This document shows positions 1,213 through 29,500 of a DNA stretch of 64,000 bases, piece by piece; position 1 is the first letter of the stretch, and each line of letters opens with the position of its first letter. The notes beneath the pieces are model-generated. The model made no database searches. It saw only the letters and a list, made by a program, of their open reading frames with translations, and was not told the origin of the DNA. Both the position numbers and the translations under genes were made by a program. Source of the DNA: Lysobacter helvus (GTDB taxonomy: Bacteria; Pseudomonadota; Gammaproteobacteria; Xanthomonadales; Xanthomonadaceae); assembly GCF_018406645.1 (NCBI RefSeq), contig NZ_AP024546.1, forward strand, positions 1,302,001-1,366,000. Reading direction: 5' to 3'.

Positions 1213-2100
1213 TCAGCTTTGGGCGTCCGTGTAGACCCGCGCCTGTTCCAGCAACCAGGCGCGGAACGCGGCCAGGCCGGCGTGCCCGCGCGAGCGGGGC
1301 GGGGCGACCAGGTAATGCGCGAAGTCGGCTTTGAGCTTCTCGTCGAACAGCAGGCACAGGCGGTTCGAATCGATCAGCGGCCAGGCCAGCGTGAGCCGGC
1401 CCAGCACGATGCCCATGCCTTCCACCGCCGCGCGGTGCAGCGTTTCGGAATCGTCGAAGTTGGCCACGTAGCGCTTGGGTGCCTTGCCGCCGAAGCGCGT
1501 GAACCAATCGCTCCAGCGCCCGCCGGGTGCGCCGAGCAGCGGGAAGTCGCCGAGCGTTTCCAGCGTGGGCCGGCCCAGGCGTTCGATCAGCGCGGGGCTC
1601 GCGATCGGCGTGAGCCAGTCGTCGAACAGGTGCACGGCTTCCAGTCCGGGCCAATGCCCGGGGCCGTAGCGCAGGCCCGCGTCCACGTCGGTGTCGCGTT
1701 CGAAGTCGACGACGTTGATCGTCGACTGCAGGTGGATCTCCAACTGCGGATGCGCGGCGAGGAAGGTCGGCAATCGCGGCACGAGCCAGCTCGTCGCGAA
1801 CGAGGGCATCAGCGTCACCGTCAGCACGTCGTCGCGACGCATGCCGAAGGGACGCAGCGCGTGTTCGATCGCATCGAGGTGATCGGCGACGCGGTCGAAC
1901 AGGCGCTGCCCGTCGGCGGTGAGTTCCACCCCGCGCGGCTGCCGCACGAACAGGCGTTGGCCGAGGCGTTCCTCGAGCCCTTTGATCTGGTGGCTGAGCG
2001 CGCTGATGGTCAGGTGCATCGACTCGGCCGCCCGCGACAGGTTGCCGAGGCGCGCGGTGGCGACGAACCCTTGCAGGGCATGCAGCGGCGGACGGTTCAT
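1213..2100 (-). CDS. LysR-family transcriptional regulator (GcvA-like)
   Basis: The 295-residue protein has an N-terminal winged helix-turn-helix (about residues 5-62, with ARLGNLSRAAESMHLTISA then ALSHQIKGLEERLG) followed by a LysR substrate-binding domain (about 90-290). The HTH sequence resembles the GcvA/TrpI branch. The start at 2100 is chosen because it begins at the conserved HTH; an in-frame upstream extension adds no recognisable sequence. It faces a small gene starting at 2216 across 115 bases, the usual arrangement for a LysR regulator and its target, so that gene is a plausible but unproven target. Confidence 0.88.
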   Translation of the reverse strand: MNRPPLHALQGFVATARLGNLSRAAESMHLTISALSHQIKGLEERLGQRLFVRQPRGVELTADGQRLFDRVADHLDAIEHALRPFGMRRDDVLTVTLMPSFATSWLVPRLPTFLAAHPQLEIHLQSTINVVDFERDTDVDAGLRYGPGHWPGLEAVHLFDDWLTPIASPALIERLGRPTLETLGDFPLLGAPGGRWSDWFTRFGGKAPKRYVANFDDSETLHRAAVEGMGIVLGRLTLAWPLIDSNRLCLLFDEKLKADFAHYLVAPPRSRGHAGLAAFRAWLLEQARVYTDAQS

Positions 2101-2215
2101 TGGAGGCGAGCCTTGAATGGAATCGAAAGGTCCCTTGCCGAACTTGCGATTTTCAGGGCGAAAGGATGCGCCTATCTTCGATCCCACTCAAGCAATGTCC
2201 CCCAGGGAGACCGCC

Positions 2216-2575
2216 ATGAACGTGCAGACGCAACGCCTCTTCAAGGACCTGTTGTTCCTCCATGGCCACGTCGCCGACCCCCGGCTCGGCGCCACGCTGG
2301 CGGACGACACGGAGCAAGCCGCCACGGACCAGGCCGCGACAACGCCGGGCATCCCCGAGGAGTCCCACATGAACCTGTTCAAGAGCTTCTGGCTGCTCGG
2401 CGGCCTGGCGTCCATCGATCCTCGCGTCGAGGACGAAGAGACCGGCTTCAACCCGAGCTACGGCAACCGCATCGCGTCCGAACGCACCTTCGGCAAGCCG
2501 CGCATCGAACCCAAGCGCGAAGCCGCCGTGCGCAAGCCGGTCGTGTCGAACGACCAGCGGGTCGCGCATTGCTGA
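2216..2575 (+). CDS. small hypothetical protein with an internal duplication
   Basis: A 119-residue protein I do not recognise. The ATG at 2216 follows a good ribosome-binding site (AGGGAGA, about 5 bases upstream); an in-frame start at 2117 is less likely. A second in-frame ATG at 2369, preceded by GAGGA at 2357-2361, could give a 68-residue product. Sequence after each start is similar: RLFKDLLFLHGHVADPRLG and NLFKSFWLLGGLASIDPRV, which suggests two repeats. No signal peptide is obvious. It lies divergent to the LysR gene and convergent with icd, separated from icd by a large inverted repeat. Confidence 0.6.
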   Translation: MNVQTQRLFKDLLFLHGHVADPRLGATLADDTEQAATDQAATTPGIPEESHMNLFKSFWLLGGLASIDPRVEDEETGFNPSYGNRIASERTFGKPRIEPKREAAVRKPVVSNDQRVAHC

Positions 2576-2579
2576 AAGC

Positions 2580-2657
2580 AGGGACCGGGGACCGGGGACC
2601 AGGGACCAGGGAAGAGCGCACTTGCTCTCTGGTCCCCGGTCCCTGGTCCCCGGTCCC
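2580..2657. repeat. GGGACC-rich imperfect inverted repeat between convergent genes
   Basis: The left arm is a run of GGGACC/GGGGACC units and the right arm is its near-complement (GGTCCCCGGTCCCTGGTCC). They flank a small inner hairpin, AGAGC-GCACTT-GCTCT. The whole could fold into a stem of about 30 imperfect pairs. It fills the gap between the stop codons of the small gene at 2575 and icd at 2664, so it could act as a bidirectional terminator. Similar GGGACC-type intergenic repeats occur in other Xanthomonadaceae to my knowledge; I saw only one copy here. Confidence 0.75.
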
Positions 2658-2663
2658 GAGTTG

Positions 2664-5898
<3,235 letters not shown>

Positions 5899-21813: not shown

Positions 21814-22989
21814 ATGGCGACGTCGCAGGCGAAACGACACGACGAACCGACCGCGGCGGGCTGCACCGCCGCGTCGCTGATGCACGCGTTCGCCGAGCGC
21901 ACCGGCGTGATCGGCGACCTGCCGCCGGTGCGCTACCTGTGGACGGATGCGTTCGCGGTCTGCAACTTCCTCGCGCTGGGGCAGGCCGACCTCGCCGAAC
22001 GCCTGATCGAACAGGTGCACGCGGTGCTCGGCCAGCATCGCGCCGACGACGCGCGCACCGGCTGGATCGGCGGCATGGATGCGCAGACCGGCACCGAACA
22101 TCCCACGCGCGGCGGATTGCGCATCGGCAAGCCCTTGCCGGAACGCGACGACGACACCGTCGTGGACTGGGACCTGGAGTGGGAACGCGACGGCCAGTAT
22201 TTCCATTACCTCGCGCGCTGGATGCATGCGCTCGACCAATTCTCGCGTCGCACCGGTCACGCCGATGCCGGACGATGGGCCCGCGAACTCGCGCAGACCG
22301 CGCATCGCGCGTTCACCTATGCGCCCACGCCCGGTGCACCGAAGCGCATGTACTGGAAGATGCGCATCGATCTTTCGCAACCGCTCGTCGAAGCGATGGG
22401 ACAACACGATCCACTCGACGCGCTGATCACGTATTGGCAACTGCGCGCGCACCAACCGCAGGGGCGCGTGGGCCACGGCCCCGAACTCGACGCCGAATTG
22501 CGCGACATGGCCGCGATCGTCGCAGGCACGAACCTGCTGACGGACGATCCGCTGGGCATCGGCGGTTTGCTGGCGGATGCCAATCGCCTCGCGCAATTGC
22601 TGCGCGTGCGGCCCGGCGACAATCCGTTGCTCGGGCTCGTGGTGGGCGCGGCGTCGCGCGGATTGGCGCGTTACCTGGCGACGCAGCCGTTCGCGCAACC
22701 GGTGGAAACGCGGTTGGCGTTCCGCGAACTCGGGCTCGCGATCGGCTTGCAGGCCGTGTCGCGGTTGTGGGTGTTGCTGGAGCGCGATGCCGCGTCGCTG
22801 GATGCGCAACCCGAATTGCGGCGGGCGCTCGATGTTTTGATCACGCAGGTACCGCTGGCGCGCACGATCACGGATGCATGGTGCGATCCCGCCGCGCAGG
22901 ACACCGCGGCATGGCGCGCGCATGAAGACATCAACGCGGTGATGCTGGCGACGGCGTTGGTGCCGGAGGGGTACCTGGACCTCGCGTAG
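21814..22989 (+). CDS. conserved hypothetical protein, alpha-helical
   Basis: The 391-residue protein is not recognised by me. There is no signal peptide or membrane segment. It appears helical throughout, with Trp/Tyr-rich stretches such as RYLWTDAFAVCNFLALGQ and DGQYFHYLARWMHALDQFS, which resemble the repeated hairpins of (alpha/alpha)6-toroid proteins such as some glycoside hydrolases. No catalytic motif can be named, so this is only a fold guess. The ATG at 21814 has a weak ribosome-binding site. It stands between the DUF2238 gene and the Rhs cluster. Confidence 0.6.
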   Translation: MATSQAKRHDEPTAAGCTAASLMHAFAERTGVIGDLPPVRYLWTDAFAVCNFLALGQADLAERLIEQVHAVLGQHRADDARTGWIGGMDAQTGTEHPTRGGLRIGKPLPERDDDTVVDWDLEWERDGQYFHYLARWMHALDQFSRRTGHADAGRWARELAQTAHRAFTYAPTPGAPKRMYWKMRIDLSQPLVEAMGQHDPLDALITYWQLRAHQPQGRVGHGPELDAELRDMAAIVAGTNLLTDDPLGIGGLLADANRLAQLLRVRPGDNPLLGLVVGAASRGLARYLATQPFAQPVETRLAFRELGLAIGLQAVSRLWVLLERDAASLDAQPELRRALDVLITQVPLARTITDAWCDPAAQDTAAWRAHEDINAVMLATALVPEGYLDLA

Positions 22990-23066
22990 CCGATCGGGCG
23001 GCGCACGACTTCGCAGATGTTTCTTCGCGTCTTCGCGCCGCGAGCGCCTAGCTTCGCGCGCTGTCC

Positions 23067-25781
23067 ATGAAGAACCCTGCGGGCATGCAACGTGCTCCGG
23101 GGAGCGGCATGGCGAAGGGATGGAAGTGGGTTCTGGTTGCGTTTGCGCTGACGACCGTCGAGGCCGTTGCAAAAAAACCTGCCGACGGGCGTGTCTTTTA
23201 CAAACCTGCGAATCATGTCGGTACGTTCGAGCGGGTAACCGTGGTGGGAACCGGGGGGTGGCGATCCGTGCCCGGTTTTTCCTGGAGCGGTAACGGAAAT
23301 GGTGGCGGTGGCGGCGGATTCTCCGAAGGTGCCGCAGGCGGGGCCGCGGGCGGCGATGACGAATCCGAAGACGAAAACCGCTGCGACAATCCGGTCGACA
23401 TCGTTACCGGCAAGAAATACGACGACGTCACCGACTTCGTCGTCGCAGGCAGCGAAGGCCTCGGCATCCATCGCACGTACCACCAGGGCTGGCGCGGCGT
23501 CGGCATGCTCGGCAACCAGTGGATCAGCAACCACGACTTGAAACTGTCGTTCGATGCATTGGTGCCTGGCCCGCCTTCGTCGACGCAGTGCTATCCATAT
23601 CCGGGCGGCCCTGCCTGCAATGTCCCGCTCGTCTACGTGATCTACGCGCACCGCGAAGCCGGCGACCTGGTGCGCTTCAACTGGAACGGCACATCCAATG
23701 CCTGGCTCGGCTCGGAGGAGCATCCCCTGGCCCGCATCACCACCGTCGCGGGCGGCTACTTCCTCGAATGGCCCGACGGCGGCAGTGAGCACTACGACAC
23801 CCGGGGCTTGCTGATGTGGCGGCTGCAACCCGACGGCACGGGCCTGTACTACACGTACGACGCCGCACGCCATCTTGTCGAGGTGCGGCATACCTCGGGC
23901 CGATCGATTCGCCTCTCGCACCAGAACAACCGCCTGGTCGAAGTCGTCGACAGTTCGGGCGTCGTGTACCGCTACGCGCACGCGGGCGGGCGACTTGCGT
24001 CGGTGACCTATCCCGACGGCAAAGGCAACCTGGGCTATCACTACGACAACGGAAAGTTGTCGGGCATCTCCGTCGCCGGCGTGCGCAAGACGTACTACAC
24101 GTACCAAGGCGATCGCGTCGTCGAATCGCGCAAGGCCGACGGCACCGACCTCAAGCGCTACGCTTACTTCGCCGATCGCACCGAGCGCACCAATGCCCTC
24201 GGGCGCAAGACCACCTACCGCATCGTCGATGGCCGAATCATCGAAATCACCGGGCATGCGACGGTGCATTGCCCATCCAGCTTCAGCAAGCGCACGTTCG
24301 ACGCCGAAGGTCGCCTCGACACGATCACCGACGAAGCAGGCGTCGTCACCGACTTCGACTACGACACGCACGGACGGCTGCTGAAGCGCACGGAAGCGCT
24401 TGGCACGGCGGTGGCGCGCACCACGCGGCTGGAATGGGATGCGAACGGACGCCTTGCGCGGCATCTCGTGGAAGGCGTGTCGGACACGCGTTACGCCTAC
24501 ACCGCGGAGGGCCGGCCCGCGACGACGACGCAGTGGGGCGTGGGTGCCAGTACCGGGCAGGCGACGGGCACCTCGTCCACGTACACCCATCATCCGAACA
24601 GGATGGTCGCGACCCTTGTCGTCGACGGGCCGCTCGCGGGCGCCGGCGATGCCGTCACTTACGCGTACAACAGCGCGGGCGACCTGCTTTCCGTCTCCAA
24701 CAGCCTCGGGCATGTCACGCGCTACGAGCAGTACGACGCGATGGGGCGCCCCGGCAGGGTGGTGGACCCAAACGGTGCCGTTCGCGAATTCGAGTACGAC
24801 GCGCGAGGGCGCGCGACGGCCGAGCGCCTGCGCGCGGATGGACAGGTCGCCGAAACGCGGCACGAATACAACGCCGCCGGTTTGCTCGCCGCCACCACCA
24901 CGCCGGAAGGCAACCGGCGCCAATTCCATTACGACGTCGCGGAACGCTTGCAAGCCGAATTCGAACAGGCCAGCGATGGCCGGTTCGACGTACGCCGCGT
25001 TTCGTACAACCCGGAATCCCAGGTCGCGGGCATCAAGGTCGAACGCGCCGACCTGCATCCCTTCCCCGTGCACGCCGCGCAATTCGTGGCGCAGAGCGTG
25101 CCGGGCGCGATGCTTGGCGGCACGGCGTACTGGATCACGGTGCAGGTCCGGAATACGAGCAACGTGCCGTGGCGCGTACAGGATGGCTATCGCCTGCGCT
25201 CCGCCAACAGCGAAGCATGGGGATTGCCGCACGGCGTCGCGCTGGATCGTGACGTTGCGCCCGGCGCGGTCGCCACCATCGCCTTCGCCGCGACCGCCCC
25301 CCGCGTCACCACGTCGCTCACGTTCCAGTGGCGCATGACGAAGAGCGACGGCACCGCGTTCGGTGAAGCCACGACCGCAGTCGCCCTTCCGCCGCCCGTC
25401 GTATATCGCGCGGAACTGGTCAGCCACGACGTGCCGGGCCACGTCTTCCACGGCCAGACAAGCTGGATCTCCGTACGCGTGCGCAACACCGGCTCGCACC
25501 CCTGGAATCTCGCACCCGACCCCACCGTGGTCCTTGCGCAGAACAACGCGCAACACCCCATGCCGCCCAGGACGTACGCCTCCGGTGTCATCCATCCGGG
25601 CCAGGTGGCCACGCTGACCTACGCCTTCAACCCGCCGCCCGGATCGCAATACCACCACTTCGGCGGCGTGGTCTGGATGGAAAACGTGCAAGCCCTCGTG
25701 GAGGTTCCGGTGAAATCCATGTACGTCGAAGACGTCACCCGGCGACCGTGCGGCGCCGGCCCCTGCGAGCAGCCGCGATGA
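23067..25781 (+). CDS. Sec-exported Rhs-repeat protein with C-terminal Ig-like domains
   Basis: The 904-residue protein has a signal-peptide-like hydrophobic segment after a basic start (about 19-36) and a Gly-rich linker (about 73-95), then a DUF6531-like Rhs entry (CDNPVDIVTGKKYDDVTDF, about 108) and many YD/Rhs repeats (e.g. YDTRGLLMWRLQPDG, FEYDARGRATAERL) to about residue 670. Instead of a toxin it ends in two tandem domains (about 672-775 and 781-890) with the patterns VQVRNTSNVPW and VRVRNTGSHPWN, reminiscent of NBR1-type Ig-like (FW) domains. No PAAR or VgrG region is seen. Its stop overlaps the next Rhs gene by ATGA. Confidence 0.85.
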   Translation: MKNPAGMQRAPGSGMAKGWKWVLVAFALTTVEAVAKKPADGRVFYKPANHVGTFERVTVVGTGGWRSVPGFSWSGNGNGGGGGGFSEGAAGGAAGGDDESEDENRCDNPVDIVTGKKYDDVTDFVVAGSEGLGIHRTYHQGWRGVGMLGNQWISNHDLKLSFDALVPGPPSSTQCYPYPGGPACNVPLVYVIYAHREAGDLVRFNWNGTSNAWLGSEEHPLARITTVAGGYFLEWPDGGSEHYDTRGLLMWRLQPDGTGLYYTYDAARHLVEVRHTSGRSIRLSHQNNRLVEVVDSSGVVYRYAHAGGRLASVTYPDGKGNLGYHYDNGKLSGISVAGVRKTYYTYQGDRVVESRKADGTDLKRYAYFADRTERTNALGRKTTYRIVDGRIIEITGHATVHCPSSFSKRTFDAEGRLDTITDEAGVVTDFDYDTHGRLLKRTEALGTAVARTTRLEWDANGRLARHLVEGVSDTRYAYTAEGRPATTTQWGVGASTGQATGTSSTYTHHPNRMVATLVVDGPLAGAGDAVTYAYNSAGDLLSVSNSLGHVTRYEQYDAMGRPGRVVDPNGAVREFEYDARGRATAERLRADGQVAETRHEYNAAGLLAATTTPEGNRRQFHYDVAERLQAEFEQASDGRFDVRRVSYNPESQVAGIKVERADLHPFPVHAAQFVAQSVPGAMLGGTAYWITVQVRNTSNVPWRVQDGYRLRSANSEAWGLPHGVALDRDVAPGAVATIAFAATAPRVTTSLTFQWRMTKSDGTAFGEATTAVALPPPVVYRAELVSHDVPGHVFHGQTSWISVRVRNTGSHPWNLAPDPTVVLAQNNAQHPMPPRTYASGVIHPGQVATLTYAFNPPPGSQYHHFGGVVWMENVQALVEVPVKSMYVEDVTRRPCGAGPCEQPR

Positions 25782-28057
25782 ACGCGCGCTCCTCTCTCGC
25801 ACTCGCGCTGGGTGCAGCGATCGCCAGCCTGTCGATCGCAAACGCCCAGGCAACTGTCACCTACCAGTCCGCCCTCGAATACGACGAGCTCGGCCGCGTG
25901 ATCCGCGTGCTGGCGGCGGATGGCAGCGTCAAGTTCCGATACGCGTACGACGCGGTGGGCAACCGCACGGCGTCCACCGACGCGTTGGGGAGGACGACCA
26001 CGTTCGCCTACGACGCGCTCGGCCGGATGGTGGCGTCCATCGACCCGCTGGGCGGGCGCGCAATGTTCACCTATGACGCCGCGGACCGCATCACACAGAT
26101 CGTCGACCCGCGCGGCATTCCAACGCGCTACCACTACGACGGCATGGGCCGCCTGGTCCGCGAGGAAAGCCAGGATCGCGGGCACACCACCTACACGTAC
26201 GACCAGGCCGGCCAGCTGCTGCACAAGACGTTGGCGGATGGAACCACGCTGACGCACGAATACGACACGCTGGGGCGGCTCACGCGACAAGGCAGCGGCG
26301 ATGAATGGCGGACGCACGTCTACGACGCGTGCGCCAACGGCAAGGGGCGTTGGTGCGAATCCCTGACCGCAGCCACGCAGACCCGCGTGGACTACACGCA
26401 GGCCGGACAGATCGAACTGAAGCGCGAACGTATCGGGGAGGACGAAAACCAGACCGCGTTCGCGTGGGATCACGCCGGGCGGCTTGCGGGAATCGCGTAC
26501 CCCAGCGGCACGTTCGTCGGGTACCGCTACGCGGCCGGCAAGCTGGAGAGCGTGTACGCGACGGTCGCCGGGGAAACGGTACCCGTGATCGGGAACATCA
26601 CGTCATCGCCCTTCGGCGGCGCAACGGGGTGGGACTACGGCAACGGACTGCAGCGCACGATCCACCTCGATCTCGACGGACGCGTAGCCGGCCTGGGTGT
26701 CGCCGATGCCTCCGGCGCGCGGCAGAGCCTGACCTACCAGCGCAATGCCGCGGATGAGATCACGCGAATCACGAATGGGGTGGATGGCGCGCTGACGTTG
26801 ACGAATGGGTTCGATGCGACTTCGCGACTCACGTCGTCGCATGCCCCGGCGCGGCAGTCCGATTTCACGTTGGACCTCAATGGCAATCGCACCGCGTATC
26901 GCGAAGGCGACGACGTGTTTGCGATCCAGGTGGATCCGAACAGCAACCGTGTGCTTGGGGCGAGTGGCGCGAAGCAGTCGTCGTTGGAGTACGACGCGAA
27001 CGGGAATCTCGTCCGCCTGAATCGAATTGGGGATGCAGATACACGGTTTGTTTACGACGGCTTTCAACGTCTTTTGCAAGTTTCGCGCATGGGCGCCGCC
27101 GGAAGCGTAGAAACTAACTATCTGACCAACGCGATCGACCAGCGTGTTCAAAAGGGCGAATTCAACGGCGCAACCCGCTTCACGTACATGGGGCAAAACC
27201 AGCTTCTCGCCGAGCGGACGCCTTCAGGATGGAAGGATTACATCCGTGTCGGCGAATCCTTGGTCGGCATGGTCAATGGGCAAACGGACTTGTACTTCGC
27301 GCACGACGACCAATTGGGTAGGCCAGAGGTATTAACCGACGCCGGGCGAAACGTGCGCTGGCGCGCAGCAAACCATGCGTTCAATCGCGAGGTTAAGGTG
27401 GACGCCGTTGGAGGAATGAGCCTCGGTTTTCCGGGCCAGTACTGGGACGAGGAATCCCGCACATGGTTCAACGGGTTTAGATACTACCTTTCGGAAGTTG
27501 AGCATGGTGGGCGTTACACCCAGCCTGACCCAATTGGCCTGGGTGGCGGCATGAATCCCTACACTTATGTCGGAAGCAATCCTACGGATCGTGTCGATGT
27601 ACTGGGCTTGCGCGCGACATGCCGGTGTTCGGATACCGGTGCAGAGATCAACATCAATTTTGATTTCGACGGACCCGGAGCCACACCCGAAGTAATCGCG
27701 TCATGGAGGTCGTCCATCGAGCAAGCATGGTCGGCACCGGGATTTAAGGTAACGACAAGCATCGGGGGATGGTGGTCTACCGATATCACCTTCATGTCTG
27801 GCCGAGGCCGCTCATTCATGCAAGGCAACCGAGGCACTTGGTTCGCAGAAGAAGACCCCTGGACCGCCGCGCATGAGTCAGGGCACATCATGAGACTGGA
27901 CGATCGATATGTTGAGGTCGAGCGCGGTATCACGGTCCCGCAGGAAGGCTGGCAGGGGACCATCATGGCGGAGCACTTAGGGACGGTGACCGCAACGGAT
28001 CGACAAGCAGTCATGGACGCTTTGGGCTGCAATTGCCCATGCGGGGATCAGCAATGA
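25778..28057 (+). CDS. Rhs polymorphic toxin with a C-terminal metzincin-like domain
   Basis: The 759-residue protein starts with a signal peptide (about 1-26) and continues directly into YD/Rhs repeats (YDELGRVIRV, YDAVGNRTASTDALGR). Next comes the Rhs core end (LGFPGQYWDEESRTWFNGFRYY-like, then TQPDPIGLGGGMNPYTYVGSNP, about 560-605). After VDVLGL the last ~147 residues are unrelated to Rhs. They contain HESGHIMRLDD with His699, Glu700, His703 and Asp709, and a downstream Met730 (TIMAE) that could be the Met-turn. This is the layout of a zinc metallopeptidase toxin. GC content falls visibly from about 27,000 on. The start overlaps the previous gene (ATGA) and the end overlaps the next (ATGA). 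Confidence 0.88.
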   Translation: MNARSSLALALGAAIASLSIANAQATVTYQSALEYDELGRVIRVLAADGSVKFRYAYDAVGNRTASTDALGRTTTFAYDALGRMVASIDPLGGRAMFTYDAADRITQIVDPRGIPTRYHYDGMGRLVREESQDRGHTTYTYDQAGQLLHKTLADGTTLTHEYDTLGRLTRQGSGDEWRTHVYDACANGKGRWCESLTAATQTRVDYTQAGQIELKRERIGEDENQTAFAWDHAGRLAGIAYPSGTFVGYRYAAGKLESVYATVAGETVPVIGNITSSPFGGATGWDYGNGLQRTIHLDLDGRVAGLGVADASGARQSLTYQRNAADEITRITNGVDGALTLTNGFDATSRLTSSHAPARQSDFTLDLNGNRTAYREGDDVFAIQVDPNSNRVLGASGAKQSSLEYDANGNLVRLNRIGDADTRFVYDGFQRLLQVSRMGAAGSVETNYLTNAIDQRVQKGEFNGATRFTYMGQNQLLAERTPSGWKDYIRVGESLVGMVNGQTDLYFAHDDQLGRPEVLTDAGRNVRWRAANHAFNREVKVDAVGGMSLGFPGQYWDEESRTWFNGFRYYLSEVEHGGRYTQPDPIGLGGGMNPYTYVGSNPTDRVDVLGLRATCRCSDTGAEININFDFDGPGATPEVIASWRSSIEQAWSAPGFKVTTSIGGWWSTDITFMSGRGRSFMQGNRGTWFAEEDPWTAAHESGHIMRLDDRYVEVERGITVPQEGWQGTIMAEHLGTVTATDRQAVMDALGCNCPCGDQQ

Positions 28058-28509
28058 ATTGGAGCGCCAAACTTCTCGCAGTGCTGTGCATTCCTTTAGT
28101 CGGGGCATGCGCAACTTCCAGGCTCGGAGATGAGAAAACAGCTGAACTGGTCGATCGACTCGTCACAGACATGACCAGCTCTCCAAAAAAACAACGTCTC
28201 GCGCTGCAAGAACTGGAGAGAGCCGGCAGAGTTGCAATCCCATATTTGGTCGCTCACCTAGACGACACCAAGAGGCTCGCCGAAGAGTCGATCACCTTGT
28301 CAAACCAATCTCCTGAAGCGTTTGAAGGGCTTCGTCACTACAGCCCAAGGACAGTCCACGATGCTCTTAGCGCTCTCTTGAACCAAATGACCGGGCAGAG
28401 CTTTGTTTTTGTCTACAACGGAGCGACGGACGCGGACCGCGAAAGAAACCTGGTTGCTTGGCGGACGTGGTGTCTTCAGGAATTCGCGGTAAAGGCTTGC
28501 GGACAATGA
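28054..28509 (+). CDS. small lipoprotein, candidate immunity protein 1
   Basis: The 151-residue product has a lipoprotein signal (VGAC, Cys19) followed by a helical body (KKQRLALQELERAGRVAIPYLVAHL) that suggests a HEAT-like repeat. It begins within the stop of the Rhs-metallopeptidase gene (ATGA), preceded by GGGGAT. It has lower GC than the flanking genes. Position directly after a toxin tip and a predicted periplasmic lipid anchor fit an immunity protein guarding against a toxin that acts outside the cytoplasm; this is inference. The start at 28054 is preferred over 28033. Confidence 0.7.
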   Translation: MNWSAKLLAVLCIPLVGACATSRLGDEKTAELVDRLVTDMTSSPKKQRLALQELERAGRVAIPYLVAHLDDTKRLAEESITLSNQSPEAFEGLRHYSPRTVHDALSALLNQMTGQSFVFVYNGATDADRERNLVAWRTWCLQEFAVKACGQ

Positions 28510-28823
28510 AATCACTATCAAGGACGGGCGTGATCTCTGCGTGCATTGGAATGGCAGCGTGCACAAGCGGGCCAAGTGATCACCAGATCATGGGCGATTT
28601 CTTGTCCTCTCCCGGATGGGAAGGCCAAGCTCCGGAAATCACAGGGGTCACGAGAGGCGATGGGTGGGACGACGGCGCGGAAGTGCGGGTCTATTTCAAG
28701 CCGAGAACCTGCGCGACGAAATGCGAAGCCGCCTTTGCTTCCATGTCCTATCAGCAGCACGATGCAGGTAAATGGCGCTTGCTCTATAGGTCGCCACAGG
28801 GCAAAGCGTTTTCAACCGATTGA
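28506..28823 (+). CDS. small lipoprotein, candidate immunity protein 2
   Basis: The 105-residue protein has a lipoprotein signal (MAAC, Cys19) and a short domain containing two Cys (RTCATKCEAAF) and YFKPRTC...YRSPQGKAF-like strands. I cannot place it in a family. It overlaps the preceding lipoprotein stop by ATGA (28506-28509), so all four cluster genes are translationally coupled. It may be a second immunity factor or a cofactor of the first. Confidence 0.6.
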   Translation: MKSLSRTGVISACIGMAACTSGPSDHQIMGDFLSSPGWEGQAPEITGVTRGDGWDDGAEVRVYFKPRTCATKCEAAFASMSYQQHDAGKWRLLYRSPQGKAFSTD

Positions 28824-28843
28824 CGGTCGCGCGCCCGCGCCGC

Positions 28844-29500
28844 TCATTGCTCCGGCGGTTCTTCTTCAAATTCCCAGCTATACCGCTGCCGCGGCGCCGG
28901 CGGATCCACGTGCCGGAACAACACCGCCGAAACCACACCGCCGATCGCGCCTCCGAGATGCGACTGCCACGACACGCCGGGATCATGCGGCAACACCGCC
29001 ACCAGCATCCCACCTGAAAACGTCAGCGCGATCATCGCCGCCGCCATCGATGCACGATCCCGTCGCAACAAGCCCAGCGCCACGACGAGGTACGCCAAGC
29101 CCTGCACCACACCGCTCGCACCGAGGTGATGCGTGCCGACGTCACCCAGCCACCACGCGCCCAACCCGCTCGTGATCCACGCGATCGGGATCGCGCGCAC
29201 CGTCGCCTTCGGATACACGCTGCCGGCCAGCGTGCCGAGCAGCAGCAGCGCGAACGCATTCGACACCAGGTGATCCCACGAGCCGTGCAGCAGCGGCGCG
29301 CCCAGCACGCCGCGCAGTCCGGCCAGCGAATGCGGTGCCACGGCCCACGCACTCGCATCGAACGCGCCCTGCAGCAGGTACACCACCGTCAGCAATGCCA
29401 CCGCCGCCGCGCTGCCGAAAAACGCCCGCCTGACCCGCCGCCGATCGCGCACGCGCTGGGCCAGGGGATCGTCGGGGAGGGCTTGGGTCGGCAGGTGCAT
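28844..29500 (-). CDS. rhomboid-family intramembrane serine protease
   Basis: The 218-residue protein has about six hydrophobic segments and the rhomboid catalytic pair: Ser129 in HHLGASGVVQG and His181 in WQSHLGGAIGG. HGSWDHLVSNAFAL supplies the usual HxxxN loop (His77, Asn81). Rhomboids cleave transmembrane segments in the bilayer. The C-terminus is acidic (WEFEEEPPEQ). The start at 29500 is chosen from length and the onset of family similarity. It is divergent from rlmI and convergent with the Rhs cluster. Confidence 0.9.
   Translation of the reverse strand: MHLPTQALPDDPLAQRVRDRRRVRRAFFGSAAAVALLTVVYLLQGAFDASAWAVAPHSLAGLRGVLGAPLLHGSWDHLVSNAFALLLLGTLAGSVYPKATVRAIPIAWITSGLGAWWLGDVGTHHLGASGVVQGLAYLVVALGLLRRDRASMAAAMIALTFSGGMLVAVLPHDPGVSWQSHLGGAIGGVVSAVLFRHVDPPAPRQRYSWEFEEEPPEQ

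Follow-up and report, generated by a model that had tools for sequence, protein, structure and literature searches.

Two overlapping Rhs genes followed at once by two small lipoprotein genes in the genome of Lysobacter helvus raise the question of what kind of toxin the second Rhs chain carries, where that toxin acts, and which of the two lipoproteins protects the producer from it. The genes lie in a 64,000-nucleotide stretch (the window; NZ_AP024546.1, positions 1,302,001–1,366,000) of a 3.27 Mb, one-contig, 99.99%-complete genome; coordinates below count from the first letter of the window, and the loci and genomes compared with it carry L and G numbers. The four genes are consecutive on the plus strand and encode Rhs1 (23067–25781, 904 aa), Rhs2 (25778–28057, 759 aa), lipoprotein 1 (28054–28509, 151 aa) and lipoprotein 2 (28506–28823, 105 aa), and ATGA overlaps with the preceding gene open Rhs2 and both lipoproteins. 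This layout, including the coordinates, the ATGA joins and the two small lipoproteins, had been given in a preliminary description and was confirmed on the sequence. With a probability of roughly 0.7, we read the locus as encoding an exported bipartite Rhs protein that would release a snapalysin-like metzincin of predicted activity into the cell envelope, with lipoprotein 1 as the immunity protein.

Rhs2 has a signal-peptide-like start, RHS repeats (PF05593 in Pfam, E = 9.7e-44) and an Rhs-associated core (TIGR03696 in NCBIfam, E = 2.6e-16; residues 546–611, 27413–27610) that ends in DVLGL and is followed directly by the tip (residues 612–759, 27611–28054). RHS/YD repeats, the Rhs-associated core and a variable tip after it are the features by which Rhs polymorphic toxins are recognized. 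On the strength of repeats and core, the product of the locus is such a toxin; the immunity part of this assignment rests on the tracking of neighbouring genes with the tip.

The preliminary description had singled out the ~147 residues after the core, which contain HESGHIMRLDD (27872–27904) with His699, Glu700, His703 and Asp709 and, farther downstream, the Met-turn candidate Met730 (27965–27967). All these positions stand, and they correspond to tip residues 88, 89, 92, 98 and 119. Among 200,000 shuffles of the tip, HExxH arose in 0.28% and HExxHx5D in 0.02%, and conservation across relatives is a stronger argument against chance than these frequencies. The tip was aligned with nine relatives (27–65% identity to the window) from five Lysobacteraceae contigs, Stenotrophomonas maltophilia, Alkanindiges illinoisensis, an Opitutae metagenome-assembled genome (MAG) and a Bacteroidales MAG. 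Ten positions are invariant in all ten rows (G21, V47, G75, H88, E89, G91, H92, D98, I118 and M119 in tip numbering), a set that includes the HExxH together with the third-ligand Asp and the Met of the Met-turn. Loss of HExxH in close homologues, which would have spoken against a peptidase, was thus not seen: nine of nine relatives keep both the HExxH and the Met. The window tip fits the metzincin zinc motif HExxHxxGxxH/D apart from its Gly, which is Arg706 in the window and other residues in close relatives, and so is not kept in the window's clade; the Gly of HExxHxxGxxD is present in the tips of L038, L039, L068 and L070. Two cysteine columns, near both ends of the tip, are fully conserved among the 11 aligned Lysobacteraceae tips and could form a disulfide, which fits the envelope.

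When a profile of the tip alignment was run against all PDB sequences, snapalysin took ranks 1 and 2 (E = 0.0038 and 0.0039), in alignments that cover the zinc motif. The AlphaFold2 model of the tip (10 sequences; predicted local distance difference test, pLDDT, 92.2; predicted template-modelling score 0.86) has a metzincin fold, and its best Foldseek match is snapalysin (4hx3_E, E = 4.1e-5, probability 1.00), followed by myroilysin, matrix metalloproteases and others; the best 50 of 1022 matches at E up to 10 bear metzincin names. VIA-align paired the model with astacin (Z 10.0, root-mean-square deviation 3.3, 127 aligned) and with snapalysin (Z 9.2, root-mean-square deviation 3.4, 115 aligned), and since rows within 1 Z unit are ties, the metzincin subfamily is not decided by these values. 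The invariant Met730 in all ten rows, the predicted fold and the Foldseek and VIA matches together provide the Met-turn and the fold expected of a metzincin, and the zinc site itself is predicted from the sequence columns. By motif, conservation, profile and predicted fold, the tip is therefore a metzincin-type (snapalysin-like) protease of predicted activity, in agreement with what had been proposed from the letters alone. It is not thereby shown as a member of the M7, Tox-MPTase1–5 or Tpe family. The window tip does not reach the snapalysin M7 family model PF02031, and members of the tip family gave weak Pfam scores for Reprolysin_4 (E = 0.0036) and Peptidase_M7 (PF02031, E = 0.039), each in one of ten members. 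No Tox-MPTase model was listed for the tip at E up to 1 in a library whose content for the five models was not checked. Single-sequence searches with the tip gave noise (phmmer against the PDB; AcrIIA4 in Pfam, E = 0.13). The matches in BFVD, some of them metalloproteases with a similar fold, were left aside in judging its origin.

What stands next to such tips was examined at 18 tip loci, by searching for open reading frames of at least 80 codons that start between -40 and +120 nt from the tip's stop. L037 was left out of this set, and L062–L066, whose contigs equal those of L028, L029, L031, L032 and L036 in length, were not counted a second time. Each of the 18 loci has a single candidate neighbour, with its first possible start at -38 to +17 nt, a closeness that is partly built in by the search window. 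A lipoprotein signal was found in 15 of these neighbours (13 by pattern and two, at L030 and L032, by eye) and a plain signal-peptide-like start in those at L040 and L067; the neighbour at L070 was counted as a membrane protein, although the lipobox pattern matched (Cys34). By pattern or eye, the neighbour is thus exported or in the membrane at 18 of 18 loci. Fourteen neighbours fall into three BLAST families, one for each tip group: A (window, L028, L029), B (L030–L036, L069) and C (L019, L038, L039), with no match between families at E up to 1e-3. The neighbours at L040, L067, L068 and L070 match none of the three. The tip groups were separated by sequence and insertion rather than by a tree, and L034, L035 and L069 are near-copies (86–98% in the lipoprotein).

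As a control we took the best Rhs core matches of the same bacterial family, at most one per genome and without a random draw. Nine of the 30 control loci could not be parsed and one (L092), whose tip is 16 aa long and lacks a neighbour, was excluded, leaving 20 other tips. By eye, the next gene encodes a lipoprotein in two of them (L090 and L099), an apparently cytoplasmic protein in five and another exported or membrane protein in 13; two pattern matches, at L073 and in the first of the candidates at L091, were set aside after manual inspection, which also admitted L090. The difference from the metzincin-type tip loci gives Fisher p values of 9e-6 (relaxed) and 2e-5 (strict), or 2e-5 when near-copies are counted once (13/16 against 2/20), all of them optimistic because the loci are related.

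The preliminary description had treated both lipoproteins as coupled immunity partners of the tip. As judged by tracking with the tip, this expectation is supported for lipoprotein 1, which itself or through a relative adjoins all three close tips, and is not supported for lipoprotein 2. Among 395 genomes of the family, lipoprotein 1 (lipobox LVGA↓C) has five matches at E up to 0.01, in the window, G131, G088, G043 and G153, and strong relatives in 3 of the 394 other genomes. Those in G131 and in G088, a Lysobacteraceae MAG, are 46% and 44% identical to lipoprotein 1 and lie directly 3' of the two tips most similar to that of the window (66% and 60% identity). The G043 relative begins 111 nt from a contig end and has an internal stop, and the G153 match (E = 0.003) looks like chance. 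A plasmid search returned no lipoprotein-1 match. The predicted model of lipoprotein 1 is mostly helical; a weak Pfam hint (E = 0.22) of a HEAT-repeat protein, set beside a helical model without a PDB match, was not taken up.

Lipoprotein 2 (lipobox GMAA↓C) matched in 16 of the 395 genomes at E up to 0.01; the matches below E = 1e-6 number seven (the window, G130 and five genomes of a single genus), and a four-row profile matched in 19 of 277 genomes. In six-frame translations of the lipoprotein-2 loci L047–L061 and L136–L154, with flanks of about 1.5 kb or less, the HExGH motif occurs only at the window's own locus and the Rhs core pattern only in G130, where the lipoprotein-2 relative (L047, 806–1126) directly follows a different Rhs tip that has no Pfam tip family. 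Since the tip is accompanied by relatives of lipoprotein 1 but, within the flanks inspected, not by those of lipoprotein 2, lipoprotein 1 is probably the cognate immunity protein and lipoprotein 2 a candidate accessory or orphan immunity protein. The residues at +2 are Ala in lipoprotein 1 and Thr in lipoprotein 2, and by the +2 rule of lipoprotein sorting both fit outer-membrane sorting.

The preliminary description missed that Rhs1 and Rhs2 resemble a single Rhs protein divided between two chains, both apparently exported. Rhs1 has a signal-peptide-like start, a DUF6531 N-plug region (NPVDIVTG), RHS repeats and an immunoglobulin-like (Ig-like) domain at residues 691–767; it has the DUF6531 match and no core match, and Rhs2 has the core and no DUF6531 match. 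In the single-chain Rhs protein L127, Rhs1 matches residues 95–671 and Rhs2 residues 672–1251; in L123 the match of Rhs1, Ig-like part included, ends at residue 912 and that of Rhs2 starts at 928, and in L124 these positions are 928 and 936. L126 matches Rhs2 only. A split like that of the window, with different tips, occurs at four loci (L118–L121) in two of the four congener genomes; chain 1 of L120 looks disrupted, and only chain 2 was seen at L122. Chain 2 of the window starts with a hydrophobic, signal-peptide-like segment, MNARSSLALALGAAIASLSIANA, as do the second chains of L118, L119, L121 and L122, more weakly that of L120, and single-chain proteins have ordinary sequence at this position. 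By these alignments Rhs1 and Rhs2 are the counterparts of two parts of one Rhs protein. At L119 (4113–4526) and L120 (4620–5036; reverse-complement coordinates), the two chains are separated by a small gene (137–138 codons) that has a signal-peptide-like start.

As to delivery, the type VI secretion system (T6SS) sheath protein VipA (PF05591) and Hcp (PF05638) had no match in the genome, with a positive E. coli control, and neither Rhs chain matched PAAR at E up to 1; these searches thus show neither the PAAR domain nor the genomic T6SS by which T6SS-delivered Rhs proteins are recognized. Both chains would instead be exported by Sec and assemble outside the cytoplasm. Such export would leave the periplasm of the producer itself open to attack by the tip and would account for a lipid-anchored immunity protein. 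The likely site of action is the cell envelope; the earlier suggestion of a target outside the cytoplasm thus gains support from the signal-peptide-like Rhs starts, the exported or lipoprotein neighbours and the missing T6SS markers.

Several observations weigh against this reading. The core motif is DVLGL where DPxGL is usual, and the signal peptides and lipoboxes were called by eye or simple pattern, with no trained predictor. The third-ligand Asp is aligned in all ten rows, and the canonical x5 spacing, present in the window tip as first described, holds in only five of them: the Asp lies five residues later in four clade-B-type rows and four residues later in L068, and in these five rows its role as a ligand rests on the alignment. 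The three tips most distant from the window's have no such cysteine pair. Neither Pfam nor NCBIfam offers an accepted family for the tip, so the family-model match that had been suggested as a check did not materialize; the two lipoproteins likewise have none there, PHROGs has none for the tip or the lipoproteins, and PADLOC none for Rhs2 or the lipoproteins. Conservation, profile and fold all rest on one alignment and are therefore not independent. The model of lipoprotein 1 (pLDDT 76.9, from three sequences) is only moderate and has no structure match in the PDB. Finally, most control tips are themselves followed by a membrane or exported protein (15 of 20, by eye), which makes immunity in the envelope common in this family.

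The alternatives differ in which part of the locus they question. That both lipoproteins together form the immunity module of the tip would agree with their ATGA overlaps, their shared island and the low-G+C segment (0.55–0.60 against about 0.63–0.71 outside) in which both sit; we hold it improbable, because none of the other lipoprotein-2 loci (15 by the single search, 18 by the profile) has an HExGH tip in the inspected flank of about 1.5 kb or less, the G130 copy stands beside another Rhs tip, and the genomes of the two closest tips, each followed by a lipoprotein-1 relative, yielded no lipoprotein-2 relative. Rhs1 and Rhs2 might also be a decayed single Rhs gene rather than a working two-chain toxin. 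Single-chain versions do exist in the genus (L123, L124 and L127), one of them in this genome, and the disrupted chain 1 of L120 points the same way, but the split recurs at four congener loci from two genomes, chain 2 has its own hydrophobic start (weak in L120) where single-chain proteins have ordinary sequence, and the Rhs reading frames of the window overlap by ATGA, so that decay seems an unlikely account.

Two further alternatives concern the role of the tip. It might be a processing or adhesion-related protease that the lipoprotein, as a regulator, restrains in the producer's envelope. Metzincins beside inhibitor lipoproteins are known in other bacteria: the potempins of Tannerella are lipoprotein inhibitors of metzincins, encoded with the KLIKK proteases, and offer a parallel to lipoprotein 1. 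This precedent, the karilysin–PotA entry 8b2q among the VIA matches of the tip model and the lack of a T6SS marker in the genome all suit a regulator. Against it, the tip occupies the variable position after the core, congener Rhs loci bear other tips, and the neighbours change with the tip group as in toxin–immunity pairs; we give the regulator little credence. Least probable of all, and in our view very unlikely, is a tip that acts in the target's cytoplasm beside a lipoprotein with some other role. Rhs tips with nuclease- or deaminase-like sequences do act there, but the exported or membrane neighbours at 18 of 18 tip loci and the invariant cysteines in 11 of 11 Lysobacteraceae tips argue against it.

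In the preferred reading of an exported bipartite toxin with lipoprotein 1 as its immunity protein, both Rhs chains would leave the cytoplasm by Sec and fold together outside it into one cage, with the N-plug on chain 1 and the C-plug and tip on chain 2. The core would cut the tip free at DVLGL↓R, and the freed protease would degrade proteins in a competitor's envelope. Anchored by its lipid on the periplasmic side, lipoprotein 1 would bind and block the protease in the producer and its sister cells, and lipoprotein 2 may be a passenger or a second-line (orphan) immunity gene. More tentatively, and with doubt, the whole may be a T6SS-independent antibacterial weapon in which two signal-peptide-exported Rhs half-cages assemble and release a metzincin into the envelope as a membrane-tethered lipoprotein inhibitor protects kin. 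If true, a two-chain Rhs logic like that of TcB/TcC would be used between bacteria, with protease–inhibitor pairs as toxin and immunity. The tips form a protease family that has no accepted model in the searched libraries and has tip-matched lipoprotein partners; the three unrelated partner families make the toxin–immunity pairing directly testable, and an exported two-chain form without T6SS markers in a small genome does the same for the question of Rhs delivery by means other than a T6SS.

The four genes make up an island (about 22,985–28,850, plus strand) that is absent at the orthologous site of all four sampled congeners. In blastn comparisons with these four genomes of the same genus, the upstream flank stops at 22974–22984 and the downstream flank resumes at 28851–28871, and the orthologous flanks adjoin with 14–32 nt between them; either the island was inserted here, then, or the congeners lost it, and both lipoproteins belong to it. 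Its G+C content is 0.55–0.60 over about 26,900–28,900, a segment that takes in the end of the repeats, the core, the tip and both lipoproteins, and 0.63–0.69 preceding it in the Rhs part (0.61 in one boundary window) and 0.66–0.71 downstream. The sharp drop, which begins 5' of the core, suggests that the core travelled together with the tip and its partners, as a cassette joined to a pre-existing Rhs body. A repeat scan found no clear border repeats at the island, and scans of the locus found no promoter sites and terminator-like sites at chance level only.

The tip matched in 21 genomes of the family at E up to 0.01, and 15 of these, its own included, have an HExGH tip; the matches at L022–L027 (six genomes), with no HExGH motif in any frame, were dropped as chance. 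Plasmids yielded one 35% fragment (E = 0.05), the phage search nothing, and the viral contigs searched no confirmed relative. A 398-genome sample of the phylum added one match, in the more distant G610, whose locus L072 (about 1500–2800, minus strand) has a 434-codon frame that is rich in cysteine and tryptophan and contains HEAGHMFGNVDE. A metzincin-like stretch, HEAGHMFGNVDEY, closes this frame, and the locus showed no Rhs core pattern. At L037 (6914–7621), a tip fragment lies in frame with its lipoprotein, apparently as a degenerate copy. The G131 locus (L028, 9667–14714) has three Rhs tips, of the metzincin, eCIS_core (E = 2.9e-8) and Peptidase_M15_4 (E = 1.4e-7) types; by eye, a lipoprotein-like gene follows each of the latter two, the first with a poor lipobox, and the M15-type tip would fit a cell-wall target.

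Among known proteins, snapalysin (MEROPS family M7; for example 1kuh and 4hx3) shares with the tip the HExxHxxxxxD zinc site and the small metzincin fold. It is a free secreted protease, whereas the tip lacks the motif Gly, leaves its first 11 residues outside the alignment and is 17–19% identical to it. The shell of the Tc (ABC) toxins consists of two chains, TcB and TcC, and would share with the Rhs1–Rhs2 pair a cage of Rhs type whose second chain ends in the tip; the signal-peptide-like starts on both chains of the pair set the two apart. Encagement in Tc toxins and self-cleavage of TcC have been described, and self-cleavage by a core aspartyl protease is known in T6SS Rhs proteins (PMC8636562). 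The literature searched held nothing that pairs snapalysin with Rhs, the paper on polymorphic toxins that was consulted names a metzincin only in its reference list, and none of the matches listed for effectors, immunity proteins and Rhs has one, which is not proof of absence from print.

Bacterial teneurin-like proteins are YD-shell toxins, many with signal sequences, with variable tips, a downstream immunity gene and an unexplained mode of delivery (PMC13018210). They resemble the carrier described here as signal-peptide-bearing YD shells and differ by their teneurin-type domains, and the main text of that paper never uses the word metalloprotease. Tox-MPTase1–5 (PMC3482391) are, like the tip described here, zincin-like and HExxH-bearing and stand behind RHS repeats. 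They differ in that they are described as distant relatives of Wss1-like peptidases and that the paper's table names no immunity partner for them. The closest system that we met is VgrG2b C-ter/PA0261 (Tpe–Tpi) of Pseudomonas aeruginosa, of which no entry turned up in the PDB sequence searches of the tip and with which no direct comparison was made. VgrG2b (PMC6899460) is an HExxH metallopeptidase toxin that acts in the periplasm and has an exported immunity gene; among Enterobacteriaceae homologues the immunity proteins are predicted lipoproteins, one of them enriched in the outer membrane, and the metallopeptidase lowered membrane-bound lipoproteins when added to lysates. Both systems thus appear to join a periplasmic metallopeptidase to an exported, sometimes lipoprotein-type, immunity protein, but VgrG2b is a T6SS spike fusion, whereas here, where T6SS sheath and Hcp were not found, the tip is modelled as a metzincin on an Rhs carrier with signal-peptide-like starts.

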